This document shows positions 27,124 to 58,070 of a stretch of 64,000 nt of DNA, in pieces. Source of the DNA: Planctomycetota bacterium (GTDB lineage Bacteria; Planctomycetota; Phycisphaerae; Phycisphaerales; UBA1924); assembly GCA_024280755.1 (NCBI GenBank), contig JAJRPN010000002.1, forward strand, positions 50,374 through 114,373. Direction: 5' to 3'. Position 1 is the first letter of the stretch. Every line of letters starts with the position of its first letter. A model generated the notes under the pieces. The model saw nothing but the letters and a program-made list of their open reading frames with translations. It ran no database searches and was not told where the DNA came from. The translations under genes and the position numbers were made by a program.

Positions 27124-27888
27124 ATGATGGATATGTCGAGCATCTCGGTCATTATTGGAATCCTCGTCGTGGGCGGGTTGGTTTCGATATATGCCATTAA
27201 AGAAGCGGCAGCCGCAAAAGAGCGGGCACGCATTCGCAAAGAGACCATGGTGGGCTTCGCCGAGCGGATGGGATTCTCGTTTACGCCCTCGCTCGATGCC
27301 TCGCATGATGAGCAGTATGCCCATTTCGAAGTGTTTCGACATGGGTTCGACCGGTATGCGTATAACACGATCGAAGGGGTGATCGATCTGGACGCGGCAG
27401 TTGTCCAGTGCAACATGGGCGATTTTCAATACAAGACCCGTGAGACCTATACGACGACCGATTCCAAGGGGCGGACGACGACGCATACGCGGATCGTGAA
27501 ACATGATTTTAGTTATTTTATTCTTGAGCTGCCGTATGATCGAATCCCGGATTTGTTGATCCGGCGCGAGGGATTATTTGATAAGATAGCGTCGGCCTTT
27601 GGGAAGAACGATATCGATTTCGAGAGCTCGGAGTTCTCGCGGAAGTACTTTGTGAAATGTGAGAGCCGAAAGTTTGCCTATGACATCATCAATCCGCGGA
27701 TGATCGAGTTCTTGCTCGAGAGCAAGCCGCACCTGATTGATCTTGAGAACGGGCGGATCTGTTTGACCAATGGGTTGTCTACCTGGCCCGCCGAACGCTT
27801 CGAGCGGTCGTTGGGTTGGACGCTCAAGTTCCTTGAGCATTGGCCAGACTTTGTGGTGAAAGATTTAGAAGAAGGAAGAATCTCATGA
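27124..27888 (+). CDS. Membrane-anchored protein partnered with LemA
   Basis: A 254-residue protein with one N-terminal transmembrane helix (ISVIIGILVVGGLVSIYAI) and a soluble domain. The domain has FAERMGFSFTPSLDAS, AAVVQCNMGDFQYKTRETYTTTDSKGRTTTHTRIVKHDFSYFILEL and FSRKYFVKCESRKFAYDIINPRMIEFLL, resembling the DUF3137-type proteins that often accompany LemA. The function of that family is not established. Its stop overlaps the lemA start by four bases (ATGA), so the two are translationally coupled. Confidence 0.78.
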   Translation: MMDMSSISVIIGILVVGGLVSIYAIKEAAAAKERARIRKETMVGFAERMGFSFTPSLDASHDEQYAHFEVFRHGFDRYAYNTIEGVIDLDAAVVQCNMGDFQYKTRETYTTTDSKGRTTTHTRIVKHDFSYFILELPYDRIPDLLIRREGLFDKIASAFGKNDIDFESSEFSRKYFVKCESRKFAYDIINPRMIEFLLESKPHLIDLENGRICLTNGLSTWPAERFERSLGWTLKFLEHWPDFVVKDLEEGRIS

Positions 27889-28454
27889 GTGGACTCGTCA
27901 TCGGATTGATCGTTATTGGAGTGCTCGTTCTCATCGTTGGCGGCTGGGTCGCAGGCATCTACAACAAACTCGTGCGCGTACGCCAACATCTCAAGGACTC
28001 ATGGTCTGGGGTCGATGTCGAACTCAAGCGACGCTATGACCTGATCCCAAACCTGGTCAACACGGTCAAGGGCTATGCCAGCCATGAGAGCGAAACGCTC
28101 GAAAATGTGATCGCGGCAAGAAACCAGGCTGCGGGGAATACTGGTTCGCCATCATCGCAGGCCAAAGACGAGGGCATGCTTGTTGGTGCATTGAAGCAAC
28201 TCGCCGTGGTCGTTGAGCAGTATCCAAACCTCAAGGCCGACACGCAGTTTATCAATCTCCAGGAAGAACTGTCTGAGACCGAAAACCGAATCGCCTCATC
28301 ACGCCGACTCTACAACGGCAATGTCCGCGAGATGAATACAACCGTCGAAAGCTTTCCGAGTGTGATCATCGCCAACATGTTCAACTTTGATAAAGCTGAG
28401 TATTTTGAGATCGAAGATGCCGCGGTGCGCGAGACGCCCAAGGTTGAGTTTTAG
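27885..28454 (+). CDS. lemA: LemA family protein
   Basis: A 189-residue protein with one N-terminal helix (GLVIGLIVIGVLVLIVGGWVAGIYN) and the LemA helical-bundle domain: LVRVRQHLKDSWSGVDVELKRRYDLIPNLVNTVKGYASHE, ENVIAARNQA, YPNLKADTQFINLQEELSETENRIASSRRLYNGNVREMNTTVESFPS. This closely follows the family consensus. LemA proteins are membrane-anchored with the domain outside the cytoplasm; their role is poorly defined. The ATG at 27885 overlaps the previous stop. The 15 extra N-terminal residues in the ORF track are read-through of the upstream gene's bases in another frame. Confidence 0.93.
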   Translation: MSGLVIGLIVIGVLVLIVGGWVAGIYNKLVRVRQHLKDSWSGVDVELKRRYDLIPNLVNTVKGYASHESETLENVIAARNQAAGNTGSPSSQAKDEGMLVGALKQLAVVVEQYPNLKADTQFINLQEELSETENRIASSRRLYNGNVREMNTTVESFPSVIIANMFNFDKAEYFEIEDAAVRETPKVEF

Positions 28455-28508
28455 TACAAAAAGTTGAGTTCAGAGGCAATCCATTGACCGTAGTTGGAGA
28501 TTGATATC

Positions 28509-29636
28509 ATGGCACTTTATGGAATGACCAGCGAACGGTTTGAGTCTCTTACTCCTACAACTTTTGAGGATGAGGGGATTACTGAACGAGCAGATTTGCA
28601 GCGGATTCTTGCGGATCAAATTCAGGTGATTGATTCCGAACTTCTTGTTCTCTGTGATGAGTTTAATCACTGGGAAGGAACTAAGCGACGAATAGACCTG
28701 TTGTGTATGGACCGCGAGGCTCGATTGGTGGTAATTGAACTTAAAAGAAACCAAAGTGGCAACCATATGGAACTTCAGGCATTGAGGTATGCTGCCATGA
28801 TATCGACAATGACTTTCAAGGAGGCCGTCGAGTCATATGCTCGATATAAGGATATTGGACGAGACGAGGCTGATCAGTTTCTTGTAGAACATGTCCATGA
28901 TGAGAATATTGAGGAAGTGTTTGGTTCTGATGTACGGATAATTTTGGCTTCAGCAAATTTTTCGCAGGAATTGGTTGCGACGGTGACCTGGTTAAACAAG
29001 CGAGATTTGGACATTCGTTGCATTCGTCTTCGGCCTTTCAAACTTGGTTCTCGATTAATAGTACAAGCCGAGCAGGTGATCCCACTTGTAGATGCTGGAG
29101 ACTTTGAGTTTCGAGTTCGAACAAAAGAAACGGAGCGCAGAGCAAGTTTCCCCAAAACTAACTGGACAGGCGCATGGTTTCTCAATGTTGGCGAGGACAA
29201 AAGTCCGTGTAGATCATGGGAAGATTCAGCAAAATATCAGTATATCAGTGCCGGAGGCGGGAAATCTTGGCAAGATCAAATACGAAAACCGGCAAAGGGT
29301 GAACTTGTTTTTGCATACATCAATTCGGTTGGGTATGTTGGTGTCGGCACGGTTCTAGAGACAGCAGTTCCATGTAAAGGATTTGTTCCACACAACCAAA
29401 CTGAAAAGCTAGTTGACCTATCGCTTGCGAAACCCCTTACAGCTCCATCGCAAATTGAGAACCTAGACACATGTGAGTATTGCCTATCAATCCATTGGCA
29501 TGCTCTGCGAGATCGGACCAATCCTGTGCGAGAAGATCATCGTCGAGGTACAGCTCGAAAAATTCACGATGAAGGCTTGGTGTCTCGCTTATGTAATGAG
29601 TTCAAAGTTGGTCGGTATCCAGAGATCAATCCATAA
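28509..29636 (+). CDS. PD-(D/E)XK nuclease fused to an EVE/YTH-like domain
   Basis: The 375-residue protein's N-terminal half contains a restriction-like nuclease core: RRIDLLCMDREARLVVIELKR, with Asp63, Glu77 and Lys79 as the D...E-X-K triad, followed by ELQALRYAAMIS, as in NucS/DUF91-type nucleases. From about residue 205, WTGAWFLNVGEDKSPCRSWEDSAKYQYISAGGG...IRKPAKGELVFAYINSVGYVGVG resembles an EVE-like domain, a fold that reads modified bases. The pair suggests cleavage guided by DNA modification, possibly phage defence; that is inference. Codon use is more A/T-rich than in the neighbours. GGAG precedes the ATG at 28509; the track's start is a TTG. Confidence 0.75.
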   Translation: MALYGMTSERFESLTPTTFEDEGITERADLQRILADQIQVIDSELLVLCDEFNHWEGTKRRIDLLCMDREARLVVIELKRNQSGNHMELQALRYAAMISTMTFKEAVESYARYKDIGRDEADQFLVEHVHDENIEEVFGSDVRIILASANFSQELVATVTWLNKRDLDIRCIRLRPFKLGSRLIVQAEQVIPLVDAGDFEFRVRTKETERRASFPKTNWTGAWFLNVGEDKSPCRSWEDSAKYQYISAGGGKSWQDQIRKPAKGELVFAYINSVGYVGVGTVLETAVPCKGFVPHNQTEKLVDLSLAKPLTAPSQIENLDTCEYCLSIHWHALRDRTNPVREDHRRGTARKIHDEGLVSRLCNEFKVGRYPEINP

Positions 29637-29662
29637 AAAAGGCGTTCAAATTGAACGCCTTT
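29635..29662 (-). terminator. Terminator between the nuclease gene and ppdK
   Basis: The perfect palindrome AAAGGCGTTCAA/TTGAACGCCTTT is followed by a run of six T residues on the minus strand and three on the plus strand. It lies 23 bases past the ppdK stop and abuts the stop of the plus-strand nuclease gene, so it probably serves ppdK mainly and perhaps both. Confidence 0.88.
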
Positions 29663-29684: not shown

Positions 29685-32630
29685 TCACTCGTCCATGATC
29701 GCGGCTTGTGCCGCGGCCAAGCGTGCGATGGGCACACGGAACGGTGAACAGCTTACATAATCGAGCCCGATCTTGTGGCAGTAGTGGACGGACTTTGGAT
29801 CGCCGCCGTGCTCGCCACAGATGCCGATCTTGAGATCAGGCTTGGTCTCACGACCTTTACTGAAGCCCATCTCGACGAGTTGGCCGACACCGGTTTGGTC
29901 GAGGCTCTGGAATGGGTCTTCGGGGAGGATGTCGCGTCCGAGGTAATCAGGCAAGAAGGTGTTGATGTCGTCACGCGAGTACCCGAAGACGAGCTGGGTC
30001 AGGTCGTTGGTGCCGAAGGAGAAGAAGTCGGCATGCTCGGCGATCTCGTTGGCGGTCAGGGCCGCGCGTGGGATCTCGATCATGGTGCCGATCTTGATAT
30101 CGAGTTTCTTTTTGAAGCCCAGTTCCTTCTTGACCTCTGCGATGACATCTTCAGCCTGTGCACGCAAGATGCTCAGTTCCTGATGTGTACCAACGAGCGG
30201 GATCATGATCTCAGGCACAGCCTTGACCTTGTTGCCCGCACATTCGATCGCGGCTTCGACAATCGCGCGAACCTGCATCGAAAGGATTTCGGGATAGGTA
30301 ATCGCCAAGCGACATCCGCGATGCCCCATCATTGGGTTGGATTCATGAAGCAGGGCGACCTGCTTGCGAACCACATCAACGCTCACGCCTTGGTTGGTTG
30401 CCACGCGTTGAATCGCATCTGGCTCGTGAGGTAGGAACTCGTGAAGTGGTGGATCGAGCAGGCGGATGGTGACGGGCAAGCCGTGCATCGCGGTGAAGAT
30501 CCCGACGAAGTCTTCGCGTTGGAACGGCAAGAGCTTGGCGAGTGCGATTTCACGATCGGCGGTGTTCTCTGCGAGGATCATCTCGCGCATCGCGGTGATG
30601 CGTTCGCCCTCGAAGAACATATGCTCGGTGCGGGTGAGCCCGATGCCTTGGGCACCAAAGTCACGCGCCCGTTGTGCGTCGGCTGGCGAATCAGCATTGG
30701 TGCGAACACCCATCGTGCGATATTTGTCGGCCCATTTCATGATCTTGGAAAAGTTGCCGGACAGTTCTGGTTCGACGGTAGGCATTGATCCAGCGAACAC
30801 TTCGCCGGTGGAGCCGTCGATCGAGATCAGATCACCACGACCAAAGGTATCGGCGCCGATGGTAAAGGTTCCGGCTTTTTCATCAATCTGAACCGCGCCT
30901 GCGCCTGCGACGCAGCATTTGCCCCACCCACGAGCAACAACTGCCGCGTGGGAGGTCATGCCGCCGGTGGAGGTGAGAATACCGACCGCGCTGTGCATCC
31001 CGTCGACATCTTCTGGGCTGGTTTCTTTACGAACAAGAATAACCTTCTCGCCTTTGTGTGCTCGTTCTACGGCTTCGCTTGCAGTGAATGCAGGATGCCC
31101 AACCGATGCGCCCGGCGACGCTGGAAGCCCGGTCGCAAGGGCGACACTTGTTTCTTTGGCTTTGGGATCAAAGCTTGGAAGCAAGAGCTGGGTGAGATCG
31201 CCGGCGGGGATGCGCAAGAGCGCTTCCTTTTCGGTGATTCGTTTTTCTTTGACCATATCGCATGCGATGTTGACGGCTGCCGAACCTGTCCGTTTGCCGG
31301 TACGGGTTTGGAGCATGAACAACTCGCCTTGCTCGATGGTGAACTCGATGTCCTGCATTTCGACATAGTGATCTTCGAGCGTTTTCTTGATCTCAAGAAG
31401 CTGCTTGTAGATCGCGTTGTTCCATGCTGGCATTTCGTCAACAGGTTGAGGCGTGCGGATACCGGCAACCACATCTTCGCCCTGGGCATTGATGAGGAAC
31501 TCGCCATAGAACTTATTTTCGCCGGTCGATGGGTTGCGGGTGAAGGCGACACCTGTGCCACAGTCTTCGCCCATGTTGCCAAAGACCATTGTTTGTACAT
31601 TGACGGCTGTGCCGTTGAGCCCGGTCATGCCTTCGATGCGACGGTATGAGATCGCCTTGTCAGCCATCCATGAACCAAAGACCGCGTTGATCGCGAGTTC
31701 GAGCTGTTTGATTGGGTTTTGTGGGAACTTTGCACCGACATGCTTGGCGTAGACCTCTTTGTACGCGACGCAGAGTTCTTTGAGTCCTTCAGCAGGAACA
31801 TCGGTGTCGTCGGTGACCTGATACTTCACCTTAATGATGTTGAATGCAGCTTCGAACTGATGATGATCGACACCCATGACGACATCGCCGAACATGTTGA
31901 TAAGCCGACGGTAGGCGTCGTAGGCGAAACGATCATTGCCTGTTTTTTCGGCCAAGCCCTTGACGGATTTATCGTTGAGTCCGAGGTTGAGGATGGTGTC
32001 CATCATGCCCGGCATCGAGACGGCTGCGCCTGAACGGACGGAGACGAGCAACGGATCGGACTGATCGCCAAACTTCTTGCCGCGTTGTTTTTCGAGTGAA
32101 GCCAGATTCTTGGCGACTTCGATCATGAGTCCCTTTGGAAGGCGCTTCTTGTTTTTGTAGTACGCTGCGCAGGTGTCGGTGGTGATGGTGAATCCTGGAG
32201 GCACCGGGAGACCAATACTGGTCATGTTGGCAAGGTTCGCGCCCTTGCCGCCGACGAGTGATTTCATAGAGACATCAGCCTCGTTCTTCTTACCGAATGC
32301 GTAGATCATCTTGCCCGCGATGACGCGCTTCTTCGGTGGTGATCTCTTTGCGGTCTTTTTTGCGGTCTTCTTAGTGGTTGTCTTGCGTGCAACTTTGCGG
32401 ACGGCTTTCTTGGTGCGCTTCTTGGAGGTGTGGCGTTTGCCCGCAGCAGCCTTCTTTGTTGATTTTTTTGCAGCCTTCTTTGTGACCTTCTTATGGGCCG
32501 AGGCGGTGCGCTTGATGACTTTTTTCTTTGCTGCCTTTTTAGTGGTCTTCTTCGCAGCTTTCTTAGCTACTTTTTTGGTGGTCGATTTGCGGACGGATTT
32601 CTTGGATGGTTTTTTCTTTGCCATGGGCAT
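29685..32630 (-). CDS. ppdK: Pyruvate, phosphate dikinase with a lysine-rich histone H1-like N-terminal tail
   Basis: PPDK interconverts pyruvate, ATP and phosphate with PEP, AMP and pyrophosphate. From about residue 107 the protein is canonical: MIYAFGKKNEADVSMKSLVGGKGANLANM (ATP-grasp start), SVRSGAAVSMPGMMDTILNLG, AFTRNPSTGE, the phosphohistidine motif GGMTSHAAVVARGWGKCCV, and the PEP-binding barrel (GIGLTRTEHMF, NPMMGHRGCRL, GTNDLTQLVFGYSRDD, GICGEHGGDP). Ahead lie about 100 residues of Lys/Ala/Thr repeats (KKAAKKTTKKAAKKK type), as in bacterial histone H1-like proteins. The tail is in frame and AGGGA precedes its ATG, so it is part of the protein. The terminator follows. Confidence 0.93.
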   Translation of the reverse strand: MPMAKKKPSKKSVRKSTTKKVAKKAAKKTTKKAAKKKVIKRTASAHKKVTKKAAKKSTKKAAAGKRHTSKKRTKKAVRKVARKTTTKKTAKKTAKRSPPKKRVIAGKMIYAFGKKNEADVSMKSLVGGKGANLANMTSIGLPVPPGFTITTDTCAAYYKNKKRLPKGLMIEVAKNLASLEKQRGKKFGDQSDPLLVSVRSGAAVSMPGMMDTILNLGLNDKSVKGLAEKTGNDRFAYDAYRRLINMFGDVVMGVDHHQFEAAFNIIKVKYQVTDDTDVPAEGLKELCVAYKEVYAKHVGAKFPQNPIKQLELAINAVFGSWMADKAISYRRIEGMTGLNGTAVNVQTMVFGNMGEDCGTGVAFTRNPSTGENKFYGEFLINAQGEDVVAGIRTPQPVDEMPAWNNAIYKQLLEIKKTLEDHYVEMQDIEFTIEQGELFMLQTRTGKRTGSAAVNIACDMVKEKRITEKEALLRIPAGDLTQLLLPSFDPKAKETSVALATGLPASPGASVGHPAFTASEAVERAHKGEKVILVRKETSPEDVDGMHSAVGILTSTGGMTSHAAVVARGWGKCCVAGAGAVQIDEKAGTFTIGADTFGRGDLISIDGSTGEVFAGSMPTVEPELSGNFSKIMKWADKYRTMGVRTNADSPADAQRARDFGAQGIGLTRTEHMFFEGERITAMREMILAENTADREIALAKLLPFQREDFVGIFTAMHGLPVTIRLLDPPLHEFLPHEPDAIQRVATNQGVSVDVVRKQVALLHESNPMMGHRGCRLAITYPEILSMQVRAIVEAAIECAGNKVKAVPEIMIPLVGTHQELSILRAQAEDVIAEVKKELGFKKKLDIKIGTMIEIPRAALTANEIAEHADFFSFGTNDLTQLVFGYSRDDINTFLPDYLGRDILPEDPFQSLDQTGVGQLVEMGFSKGRETKPDLKIGICGEHGGDPKSVHYCHKIGLDYVSCSPFRVPIARLAAAQAAIMDE

Positions 32631-43774: not shown

Positions 43775-44212
43775 CTAGAAAATGTTTTGGAAGTACAACA
43801 CCAGGATAAGCATATAGATTGTGCTGGCTGTTGAAACTGACCAACAGCTAATTTGAAAAGCTGTTTCAAGCCAAGTTGCACCGTGCCGAGTTATATTGAT
43901 GGTTCTTACACACAAAAACACGCTCAAGTAGAACAGTTGAAGCGTCATTGCGCCTACAGCAAATCGAGCAATACCTGGATCAACTGGCGCAACTGCCGGA
44001 AGAAGCATCCGCCACAACCCCGCGTGTATAAGTGGGGTAATCAGTACCAGTTCAAATGTAATCGCATTGCTCGATCGTTTGCGGACGCACATGAGAGCAT
44101 CAACTCGAGCCGAGTTGCCACACTCTGGGCAGGTGGCGGATGCGCCTTGGTTGATGAGGCCGGTGAGGTCGTAGTTGCAGGTGGGGCAGGTTGGGGTGAT
44201 GGGTTTGGGCAC
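43775..44212 (-). CDS. Zinc-ribbon four-helix membrane protein
   Basis: A 145-residue protein starting at a GTG. A zinc ribbon (TCPTCNYDLTGL...TCPECGNSARV, residues 8-34) is followed by about four transmembrane segments (ELVLITPLIHAGLWRMLL, ARFAVGAMTLQLFYLSVFLCV, WLETAFQISCWSVSTASTIYMLILVLYF). It shares plan and ribbon with the gene at 44527-44985 and the ribbon of 6331-7881. No function is known. It is flanked by repeats D and C on both sides. Confidence 0.7.
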   Translation of the reverse strand: MPKPITPTCPTCNYDLTGLINQGASATCPECGNSARVDALMCVRKRSSNAITFELVLITPLIHAGLWRMLLPAVAPVDPGIARFAVGAMTLQLFYLSVFLCVRTINITRHGATWLETAFQISCWSVSTASTIYMLILVLYFQNIF

Positions 44213-44526: not shown

Positions 44527-44985
44527 TTAAAACCCAGCCCATTTACTGAACGCAAAGATTGTTGCGAAATATATGGCGGATCCGGGTAAGCAGTAGAGCA
44601 ATCCCCAGAGCGGGATGCTCCAGCGTTGGTATGGCCGGGGGTATCGCTTTGATTTGACGAATGTTGATATACATGCACTGATGAAGAGTGCAAAGAGAAT
44701 CAATGGATTGAGCAAAGCATGAAAACCAAGCACGAATATGCTGATTTCAAACGGGAGGAACACGCCTACGAATCCAGCAAAATTTGTGATGAGGGTGGGG
44801 ATGATAAGTATGTAGAGGAAGAGGAAGTGAAATTTTTTCTTGGTGAACCCGGCGCTGGGGGATGCTGGTTTGAGGAGCGTGCCACACTCTGGGCAGGTGA
44901 TGCGATTGGCCTTGTCGGGTTCGATGCCGAGGAGGTTGTAGTCGCAGATGGGACAGACGGAGTTTGAGACTGGCAATTTATTCAT
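44527..44985 (-). CDS. Zinc-ribbon membrane protein, relative of 43775-44212
   Basis: A 152-residue protein with a zinc ribbon (VCPICDYNLLGI...TCPECGTLL, residues 11-38) and four predicted transmembrane segments (FHFLFLYILIIPTLITNFAGFVGVFL, ISIFVLGFHALLNPLILFALFISACI, WSIPLWGLLYCLPGSAIYFATIFAF). It starts inside the stop of the upstream gene (ATGAATAA, eight-base overlap), so the two are translated together. Function is unknown; the soluble ribbon with a membrane bundle recurs in three proteins of this window. Confidence 0.72.
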   Translation of the reverse strand: MNKLPVSNSVCPICDYNLLGIEPDKANRITCPECGTLLKPASPSAGFTKKKFHFLFLYILIIPTLITNFAGFVGVFLPFEISIFVLGFHALLNPLILFALFISACISTFVKSKRYPRPYQRWSIPLWGLLYCLPGSAIYFATIFAFSKWAGF

Positions 44986-49541: not shown

Positions 49542-49577
49542 CACTAACCAAAAATAAGTAAAATATTTTGGTTAGTG
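49542..49577. promoter_or_regulatory. Perfect inverted repeat upstream of fic, probable operator
   Basis: CACTAACCAAAA and TTTTGGTTAGTG form a perfect 12-base inverted repeat around a 12-base A/T-rich centre, ending 26 bases before the fic ATG. A further half-site TTTGGTTA lies at 49527-49534. There is no T run in terminator position, so a dimeric regulator site is more likely. The binder could be the Fic protein's own C-terminal winged helix; that is inference. Confidence 0.7.
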
Positions 49578-49603
49578 CGGGTTGGGACCAATACACTTTG
49601 GGT

Positions 49604-50815
49604 ATGAAACCTGACACATTCCATCCAAAATTAAGTACCGGCCGCCTTGTTCAGACTCAGTTTCAGACGGTGAAGTTTCAGTCTGGTCGGCTGAAAAAAA
49701 TTCATGAGGATGGATGGGCGTTCATTCCAAACCTTATGCCAAATTTGGACGAGGTGCTCACAGAAACAAAGTCTCTGCTCTCGCTCCATGAGCAGGCGAC
49801 GGCGATGCTCGGGCGTTTGGATGGGAGTTTTCAGAATGTACCAGGTGGATTGAGTATCAATCCGTGGGTGCTGTATAAGCCCTTGCGTATGCGGGAAGCT
49901 CGGTTGTCATCAAAGATTGAAAACACGATTGCGAGTGCGACAGAAATTGAAGCAGTGATGGTTATGCCCTCCGAGCGTAGCGAGCCTTTGGAAGTGCGGA
50001 ATTATTTCAAGGCGATAGAGATGGGGGCTCAAGATCAAGGCCCAATTAACGAAACGATGATTCGTGGGCTGCATAAAGAGTTGCTCAGTGGTATTCCTGA
50101 ATCAGAGAAAAAATATCCAGGCCAGTATCGTCCTTCGCAGGTCATGATTGGAGATGACGATGAGTCATTCTCTGATGCTCGCTTTGTGCCACCACCGCCG
50201 GGCGAGGTTCCGATGTTGATGCAGCAGCTTGCTGAGTATATGCGCAATCCGCCTGAGGGGATGCCATCTCTCTTTGTGGCGGCAATCGTTCACTATCAGT
50301 TTGAGGCGATTCATCCGTTTGCTGATGGAAATGGGCGATTGGGGCGGATGCTTATCACGCTGTCGTTGTGCAATAATACTTTGTTGTCGAGGCCATTGAT
50401 ATATCCCAGTGGGTACATCAATAAACACAAGCAGCAGTATTACGATCTGCTACTTCGGGTCTCAACACATGGGGATTGGGCATCTTGGCTGGGGTATTTT
50501 CTAAAAATGGTGATCGCAGAGTCACAGGGAACGATTCAACGCATACAGAGATTGTTTCAGCTTCGGCAAGATTATCTTGGGCGGCTTGATAACAAGCCTC
50601 GCGGACAACGGTTTACAGATGCAATTGATTCATTGTTTGAGCAGTCCATGACCACTGTCAAGATGCTTCATAATCGCATAGGCGGAACAGAGCAGACTGT
50701 TCGAAATTATGTAGATATCATGGTTGAATATGGAATTCTACATCGCGCCGAGGGGACTCAGAGGACAAAGATTTATTTTGCTCCTGAAATCCATATGGTC
50801 GTCGATGAAGATTGA
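49604..50815 (+). CDS. Fic family protein with C-terminal winged-helix-like region
   Basis: Fic enzymes transfer AMP, or another nucleotide part, to a hydroxyl of a target protein. The 403-residue protein has a DUF4172/Fic_N-like N-terminal half (LLSLHEQATAMLGRLDG...SSKIENTIASATEIEAV), the inhibitory-motif-like SSKIENT, and the catalytic loop VHYQFEAIHPFADGNGRLGRMLI (HPFxDGNGRxxR, complete). The last 90 residues (AIDSLFEQSMTTVKMLHNRIGGTEQTVRNYVDIMVEYGILH) look like a winged helix. ATG at 49604 replaces a TTG in the ORF track. It may be autoregulated through the inverted repeat. It is convergent with ubiX, stop against stop. Confidence 0.9.
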   Translation: MKPDTFHPKLSTGRLVQTQFQTVKFQSGRLKKIHEDGWAFIPNLMPNLDEVLTETKSLLSLHEQATAMLGRLDGSFQNVPGGLSINPWVLYKPLRMREARLSSKIENTIASATEIEAVMVMPSERSEPLEVRNYFKAIEMGAQDQGPINETMIRGLHKELLSGIPESEKKYPGQYRPSQVMIGDDDESFSDARFVPPPPGEVPMLMQQLAEYMRNPPEGMPSLFVAAIVHYQFEAIHPFADGNGRLGRMLITLSLCNNTLLSRPLIYPSGYINKHKQQYYDLLLRVSTHGDWASWLGYFLKMVIAESQGTIQRIQRLFQLRQDYLGRLDNKPRGQRFTDAIDSLFEQSMTTVKMLHNRIGGTEQTVRNYVDIMVEYGILHRAEGTQRTKIYFAPEIHMVVDED

Positions 50816-56697: not shown

Positions 56698-57802
56698 ATG
56701 GACACTCGTTGCTATCAAATACAAAGGGCTGAGACAATTCGGTAATCGCCATATCCAGGCGGGCCCAATCACGCTCTGCATAATGCCTTTTCATCAAGCC
56801 CTTCTCAGAATGGCCAAGGAACATGGATGTTGTTGAATCATCAATTTTTTCAACTTCTGAAGCAGCCGTCTTTCTCAAAGAATAAAATCCGCGATGATTG
56901 GGCACCTTGGTCTTCTTCATGAGTCGAAAGAAGGCTGAACGGATGGCATCAGTTCGCTTGAACTTGTCATCTACGAAATACTCTCTGACAAGCGGATGAC
57001 CGGACTTGGACAAAAAGACTCGGTCGTTAGGCTTGCCATCAAGGTTGCCATGAATCTTCAGCATCTCAACAGTCAGAGGCCATAAAGCGAATTCGCAATG
57101 AATCCCAGTCTTCGTTCTCTTGCGCACAATCCGGTTTTCACTCATTTGGATTTCAGAATTCCGAAGTGAAGAGATGTCCGTTTGGCCCATGCCACAATTG
57201 AGTCCCAGTAGCATGAACATTTTAGTTCTCTCGCTTGCTGCTGAATAGAGGGTGTTTATCTCTTCTCTCGAAAACCGATTGACTGTTGGCTCAGGGATTG
57301 TGATCTTTGCATAGCCATCAAGATTCCTTGGCAGAGTCTCTATCAATGCCATCTGGTAACCCCACTTGATCATCAGCTTGACGATGTCCAATCTTGATTT
57401 GGCCGTCCATGGCGAAATGGATTTGTCAGTTGCTGCCGAGATGGGCAACGACAAGGTGTAGTTTCTGTAATCATCAAGATGCATCTCATTGAGCTTTGAG
57501 AGTGGCAAGTCGGTTTGGAGATAATCAACGAAATGGCAAACAGAGATTCTGATTTTCTCAAGCCATGTAGCTGAGATTTCTCCTCGTTCATAACGGGTAA
57601 AGCAGGACTGCAAATACTTCTCTCCAAAGTCTTCGACTGTGAGCTTCGCCACTTTGATTTCAACGGGGAGTTTCACTTCTCTTTCCGCCAGAAATTCAAA
57701 GTATCGGAGTTCAGCATCTTTGTACGAACGGTTCACGCTCTTTGGGTTTACAGATCCGAAGTATCGCATCTTCCCATCAATCTGCTTGTGACCTACCCCC
57801 AT
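56696..57802 (-). CDS. Tyrosine recombinase/integrase, planctomycete type
   Basis: A 368-residue site-specific recombinase. An N-terminal segment (KMRYFGSVNPKSVNRSYKDAELRYFEFL) and SAM-like core-binding domain (LTVEDFGEKYLQ...TWLEKIRISVCHFVDYL) precede the catalytic domain: LLGLNCGMGQTDISSLR at the first-Arg region, with Gln-Thr where most families have Arg, then KRTKTGIHCEFALWPLT, HRGFYSLRKTAASEV (second Arg), MFLGHSEKG (His) and MKRHYAERDW (nucleophilic Tyr). The divergent first box is common in planctomycete integrases. ATG at 57802 is preferred, with GGGAG upstream. It may have brought in the surrounding island. Confidence 0.85.
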   Translation of the reverse strand: MGVGHKQIDGKMRYFGSVNPKSVNRSYKDAELRYFEFLAEREVKLPVEIKVAKLTVEDFGEKYLQSCFTRYERGEISATWLEKIRISVCHFVDYLQTDLPLSKLNEMHLDDYRNYTLSLPISAATDKSISPWTAKSRLDIVKLMIKWGYQMALIETLPRNLDGYAKITIPEPTVNRFSREEINTLYSAASERTKMFMLLGLNCGMGQTDISSLRNSEIQMSENRIVRKRTKTGIHCEFALWPLTVEMLKIHGNLDGKPNDRVFLSKSGHPLVREYFVDDKFKRTDAIRSAFFRLMKKTKVPNHRGFYSLRKTAASEVEKIDDSTTSMFLGHSEKGLMKRHYAERDWARLDMAITELSQPFVFDSNECP

Positions 57803-58070
57803 ATCCTGTACCACTCCCTATGTCAGGACAGCAGCATTCCTTTGTCCGATCAGAGGTCTGCTGAGTGGAGCAGTGATCTGAACACCCTACGAGCGACCTG
57901 AATCAAATGGGGATAGCGAGATGCAGGTGTCTATCGAGGGGTACGCAGCCTATAGGTGACACTACCAACATGATATATGAGATTGCCCATCCCAATCTTA
58001 TGAAAAGCGGCGAGATGCGTGTCATTGACCCAGACGGCGCTGTGATTTTTGTCAGCCAGTTGGCCAAACG

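Follow-up and report, generated by a model that had tools for sequence, protein, structure and literature searches.

Fusions of an EVE domain to a PD-(D/E)XK nuclease have been predicted to function as type IV restriction endonucleases, and the available text of the same study describes many defence EVE domains as detectable only by sensitive methods (Bell et al., 2020, PMC7641849). VcaM4I, an EVE-HNH protein, is a modification-dependent endonuclease that binds DNA containing 5mC or 5hmC through base flipping, the flipped base being accommodated in a pocket composed of P24, W82 and Y130 (PMC7897488). Type IV enzymes complementing BREX are, according to the accessible part of the source, a documented arrangement (PMC8565348). 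The families known as PDCs are single-gene candidates proposed by guilt-by-embedding, mostly without experimental validation (PMC12988326); for one of them, PDC-S11, no member with a published activity was found in the literature, the available texts of which include an in-silico co-occurrence survey naming the family. The kind of system considered here has already been predicted and its family has already been catalogued; the present analysis adds the exchange of modules within the family, a paralogue on an apparent integrative element and an atypical reader domain.

The gene considered here, located in a 64-kb stretch of DNA analysed in full (the window), encodes a nuclease-EVE fusion (Table 1) and was probably acquired by horizontal transfer. 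Its product is probably a modification-dependent (type IV-like) restriction nuclease that works as a stand-alone, single-gene system. Its reading frame (28494/28509-29636, + strand) is intact, with 375 codons and no internal stop, and the TTG at 28494 is unlikely to serve as an alternative start. The initial annotation had described codon use unlike that of the neighbours and an insertion between lemA and ppdK, and both observations were borne out. The gene has a GC content of 0.447 and a GC3 of 0.374, the lowest value among 51 ORFs of the window (mean 0.602, sd 0.079; z = -2.9), making it compositionally foreign, more deviant than any other ORF there. In each of three congeners that share this gene order, the lemA-ppdK interval lacks the nuclease gene and contains other genes, named from their translations as a zinc-ribbon membrane protein (genomes G005 and G014) and a YdcF-like protein (G013); this interval is a variable slot, because the congeners hold unrelated genes there. 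The slot genes of the congeners are found at L119 2184-2660 (-), L121 4553-5137 (+) and L123 1623-2261 (-), and proteins similar to the zinc-ribbon proteins of the slot are encoded at 43778-44212 and 44530-44985 of the window. The inverted repeat separating the nuclease gene from ppdK was not reported by a strict terminator scan, promoter and terminator scans gave no match, and the congeners have a different hairpin at this place.

Table 1. Features of the nuclease-EVE gene and its flanks (window positions)
Feature	Position	Strand	Basis
lemA, left neighbour, flank of the variable slot	27885..28454	+	
Probable ribosome-binding site (GGAG) for the ATG at 28509	28497..28500	+	8 nt upstream; read directly from the sequence
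Whole gene, nuclease-EVE fusion, PADLOC PDC-S11 family	28509..29636	+	375 aa; PDLC04915 E = 9e-100, residues 1-367
NucS/RecB-type PD-(D/E)XK nuclease domain, residues 1-~190	28509..29078	+	Pfam NucS_C, profile against PDB, Foldseek
Codon of catalytic Asp63	28695..28697	+	Identical in 54/54 homologues covering the position
Codons Glu77-Leu-Lys79, (D/E)XK motif	28737..28745	+	E77 and K79 identical in 54/54
Codons Gln90...Tyr94, QxxxY motif of RecB/NucS-type nucleases	28776..28790	+	Identical in 54/54
Linker helix, residues 198-213; exchange point of C-terminal modules in the family	29100..29147	+	AlphaFold2 model; module boundary in homologues
EVE/YTH-like reader domain, residues 214-375	29148..29633	+	Own AlphaFold2 model and Foldseek
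Conserved strand motif GYVGVG of the reader domain, residues 275-280	29331..29348	+	Aligns in register with the classical EVE GxVGI strand
Trp330 codon; invariant reader-domain residue, candidate pocket aromatic	29496..29498	+	55/55
Inverted repeat AAAGGCGTTCAA/TTGAACGCCTTT, perfect, terminator-like, separating ppdK from the convergently oriented nuclease gene	29638..29662	.	Read directly from the sequence
ppdK, pyruvate phosphate dikinase, right neighbour, flank of the variable slot	29685..32630	-	

The remainder of the window consists mostly of housekeeping genes. A PADLOC search of 52 window ORFs identified, besides the nuclease gene, a single SoFic and two more candidate families of the single-gene type, and no restriction-modification gene was found among the 51 other ORFs. 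The 64-kb surroundings of this copy are not a defence island, and the gene is stand-alone by context, given the absence of a restriction-modification gene from the window and the dissimilar neighbourhoods of its relatives. A Fic-family protein, which is probably the SoFic match, is encoded at 49568-50812 (+) with a low GC3 of 0.496. An ORF resembling a tyrosine recombinase/integrase, also of low GC3 (0.516), lies at 56699-57814 (-), where no mobile element was delimited.

The N-terminal domain is a predicted nuclease of the NucS/RecB type. Pfam NucS_C matches residues 28-100 with an E-value of 6.8e-5, slightly under the cut-off, and also matches 55 of 57 aligned relatives, and the family profile retrieved NucS (2vld, 1.7e-6) and EndoMS (5gke, 0.0096) from the PDB. 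The same two proteins were obtained when the AlphaFold2 model of the whole protein was compared by Foldseek (2vld, 2.8e-5; EndoMS, 1e-4). This model has a pLDDT of 87.6 and a pTM of 0.55, with low confidence at about residues 195-199, near the linker helix, and the pTM makes the relative geometry of the domains uncertain. The active-site residues initially proposed (Asp63, Glu77 and Lys79) were correctly placed and, like Q90 and Y94, are fixed in all 54 relatives covering them, indicating strong constraint on catalysis across the family. The NCBIfam cut-offs for NucS were missed by a wide margin (28.1 and 24.8 bits versus 216 and 252). An assignment to Cas4 was rejected (22.8 bits against a curated cut-off of 65), as was one to Shedu SduA, for which the fold match is weak and a PADLOC search of the protein at E-values up to 1 gave no match to a Shedu model.

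The C-terminal domain, folded alone from 54 sequences with AlphaFold2 (residues ~214-375), gave a pLDDT of 87.9 and a pTM of 0.84. Its best Foldseek match in the PDB was 2eve (1.7e-4), followed by further EVE-family proteins, and the matches included human THYN1 with 5mC DNA (6.4e-4), VcaM4I (7.3e-4) and the YTH domain of Mmi1 (9.5e-4). E-values for these EVE/YTH matches ranged from 1.7e-4 to 1e-3, with probabilities of 0.98-1.00 and modest TM-scores of 0.36-0.5. The top match, 2eve, is the EVE prototype from which the name was taken. A comparison independent of structure prediction, in which hhalign aligned the reader-domain profile to 18 bona fide EVE proteins encoded in genomes of the same order, gave a probability of 74% and an E-value of 2.7e-5 over 34 columns, the GD.v..Y...GyVGvG.V region aligning in register. 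The Pfam EVE model did not match the protein sequence, and when the reader-domain profile was searched against PDB sequences, no match was credible (best E 0.012). The EVE assignment is nevertheless well supported, even without a Pfam match, because Foldseek and the independent hhalign comparison agree. The pattern that had first suggested an EVE-like reader, GAWFLNVGEDKSPC...GELVFAYI, is present within this separately folding domain, and the structure comparison proposed as a check on that suggestion returned an EVE-like predicted fold. The genome carrying the window yielded no stand-alone EVE protein (PF01878), although 42 of the 61 searched genomes of the order have one.

The full-length protein belongs to PADLOC family PDC-S11, a candidate for phage defence, matching four further strong PDC-S11 models in addition to PDLC04915; in the models of this family the same nuclease is combined with a number of different C-terminal modules. 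Relatives were found in 360 plasmid records and at 167 confirmed loci in species-representative genomes. The distribution of the family in the phylum is patchy, with relatives in 12 of 294 phylum genomes and in 11 of 61 near relatives. A scan of IMG/VR with the protein returned no relatives, and no DNA match was found in 5,426 E. coli genomes. Phage carriage through MT836049 (L016), the sole match to a record labelled as phage, was considered and rejected, since this record, despite its label 'Bacteriophage sp.', appears to be a fragment of a bacterial chromosome; its genes, inspected by eye, are ordinary chromosomal ones (TrmD-like, ABC transporters). Two relatives are apparently broken, L034 by a split frame (261-581 and 639-1355) and L137 by an in-frame TAA, as expected of a family whose genes are rapidly gained and lost.

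For 22 non-redundant loci, the three closest ORFs to the left and to the right were surveyed (112 ORFs in total, ~0.15 Mb), and seven of them encode type I specificity subunits (HsdS). About 50 HsdS domains were counted in 40 phylum genomes (~175 Mb), so that some 0.04 would be expected in a comparable stretch; the excess near the relatives is more than 100-fold, with control genomes that differ in taxa from the loci. Type I restriction genes adjoin nine of the 22 non-redundant loci and 38 of all 78 relatives. Members of the family defined by the N-terminal nuclease also occur in BREX islands, and one lies between hsdS and hsdR, inside a type I operon. The contexts are thus many and very often restriction loci, which refutes the conserved housekeeping neighbourhood that had been named as an outcome contrary to a defence role. 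Even near-identical enterobacterial relatives have neighbourhoods unlike each other. A conserved partner upstream of the Klebsiella/Providencia plasmid relatives was rejected, as the two genes concerned are unrelated and are missing from the chromosomal relatives compared.

Family members carry, C-terminal to the nuclease, an EVE domain, DUF4268, a TNQWG-type module or others. When these labels, which were assigned partly by eye, are placed on the nuclease tree, 11 changes are required, and three would suffice if each module had arisen once; the EVE label changes six times, with at least three of the changes forced by well-supported branches. The relative L017 illustrates the exchange clearly in the nuclease and EVE trees: its nuclease falls in the clade of the window protein, while its EVE domain groups with those of L008, L039 and L072, and of these L008 and L039 have nuclease domains of a different clade. 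In the family, the nuclease has been conserved while the C-terminal module was swapped repeatedly, and repeated swapping of one half with a fixed catalytic half would be expected if the C-terminus sets the target.

The genome carrying the window contains two further members of the family. One paralogue (L009/L097) is 43% identical and has the same architecture; it is flanked by a serine integrase adjoining tRNA-Ser on one side and by a terminase-like gene on the other, and further genes of the stretch encode a DrmD-like helicase, a ParB-methyltransferase, and the methyltransferase and restriction enzyme of a type III system. This stretch is an apparent integrative element. An XRE/metalloprotease pair is also found on this defence-carrying element at tRNA-Ser (L097 1-16001; L128 1-19501, contig C35). 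The other paralogue (L010/L098) has the same nuclease and an unrelated C-terminus, and its GC3 of 0.41 is low, like that of the window gene.

Taken together, the fixed catalytic motif, the reader fold, the PDC-S11 match, the restriction contexts of the relatives, the paralogue on an apparent integrative element, the patchy distribution, the foreign GC3, the variable slot and the swapped modules support direct modification-dependent restriction, the role tentatively suggested from the sequence at the outset. It is the best-supported explanation; CMoRE and VcaM4I are single-protein reader-nuclease enzymes that act in this way. In the mechanism that we infer, the EVE-like domain would bind DNA, its presumed target, and flip a modified base into its pocket; binding would anchor, and perhaps de-repress, the NucS-type domain, which would then cut the DNA in a metal-dependent manner via D63, E77 and K79. 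Host DNA would be spared because it does not carry the modification, so that no methyltransferase partner would be needed, and an anti-phage effect could result.

The same architecture and defence context would be found in an abortive-infection effector, in which the EVE domain senses a mark of infection (modification or damage) and the nuclease cuts DNA non-specifically, killing the host cell. VcaM4I deprived of its reader and linker is a non-specific toxic nuclease (PMC7897488), and a loss of control is therefore easily imagined, but the characterised fusion CMoRE restricts directly and non-abortively according to the accessible part of its description (PMC12923530), and abortive killing appears improbable here.

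It is also quite improbable that the gene is a recently acquired copy, now being lost, with a reader that has diverged to inactivity, although three features point that way: the foreign composition, the lack of a close orthologue in 20 congeners (none was found that was close enough for a test of purifying selection) and the altered reader. In the family alignment, the window reader keeps W237, Y276, E323 and W330 and deviates at near-invariant positions (G244Q, Y254W, L261P, A339P and G344H), with FGNQN replaced by RGTA, and it forms a long branch in the tree. Judged from these substitutions, it may bind another ligand, or its function may be weakened or failing. However, the frame is intact and preceded by a ribosome-binding site, all catalytic residues are kept, and neither the paralogue L009 nor L007, a relative of that paralogue, has FGNQN, so that an alternative sub-type is suggested and not decay. 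A bolder proposal, rather doubtful as a whole, is that PDC-S11 is a single NucS-type nuclease platform onto which readers (EVE, DUF4268, TNQWG-type and others) are grafted, much as specificity subunits are swapped in type I systems, and that the sub-type of the window, without FGNQN and changed at G244, Y254 and L261, reads a base modification read by no characterised type IV enzyme.

RNA is also bound by EVE and YTH domains, and the fold matches include YTH readers of RNA, as would be expected of an RNA-targeting nuclease guided by a reader of modified RNA. NucS-type PD-(D/E)XK domains cut DNA, however, and the neighbours of the relatives are DNA restriction systems, so that such a target is very unlikely. 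A NucS/EndoMS-like housekeeping role in DNA repair, suggested by the closest sequence and fold matches of the nuclease domain, is highly improbable and largely refuted by its distribution in 12 of 294 phylum genomes, which is not that of a widely conserved core gene, and is further opposed by scores of about 28 bits against cut-offs of 216-252, by the exchanged C-terminal modules and by contexts with mobile and restriction genes.

The protein is a compact candidate for a modification-dependent restriction enzyme, a kind of enzyme that is useful for mapping DNA modifications, and the module exchange suggests that DUF4268 and the remaining modules are readers not yet described.

Compared with known systems, the protein has a weak whole-protein Foldseek match to Shedu SduA (8ps4, E = 8.9e-3). 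With NucS/EndoMS it has the nuclease fold and motif in common, but the similarity is confined to the nuclease domain, lies far under the curated cut-offs and is not accompanied by a mismatch-repair context. VcaM4I (PDB 6yex) has an EVE reader of the same fold fused to a nuclease, but that nuclease is of the HNH type and its EVE domain is N-terminal, whereas that of the window protein is C-terminal. CMoRE, a GIY-YIG type IV enzyme, is a single protein with the same layout of an N-terminal nuclease and a C-terminal modification sensor; its nuclease belongs to another family and, in the accessible part of its description, the sensor is not established as EVE-like (PMC12923530). The EVE-PD(D/E)XK fusions of Bell et al. 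(2020, PMC7641849) have the same domain pairing and proposed role; the available text does not mention NucS, confirm that their set includes the window subfamily or describe one nuclease on which EVE is exchanged with DUF4268 or further modules. With PDC-S11, finally, the protein shares a full-length match and the same two-part build, and nothing tested excludes its membership of this family.
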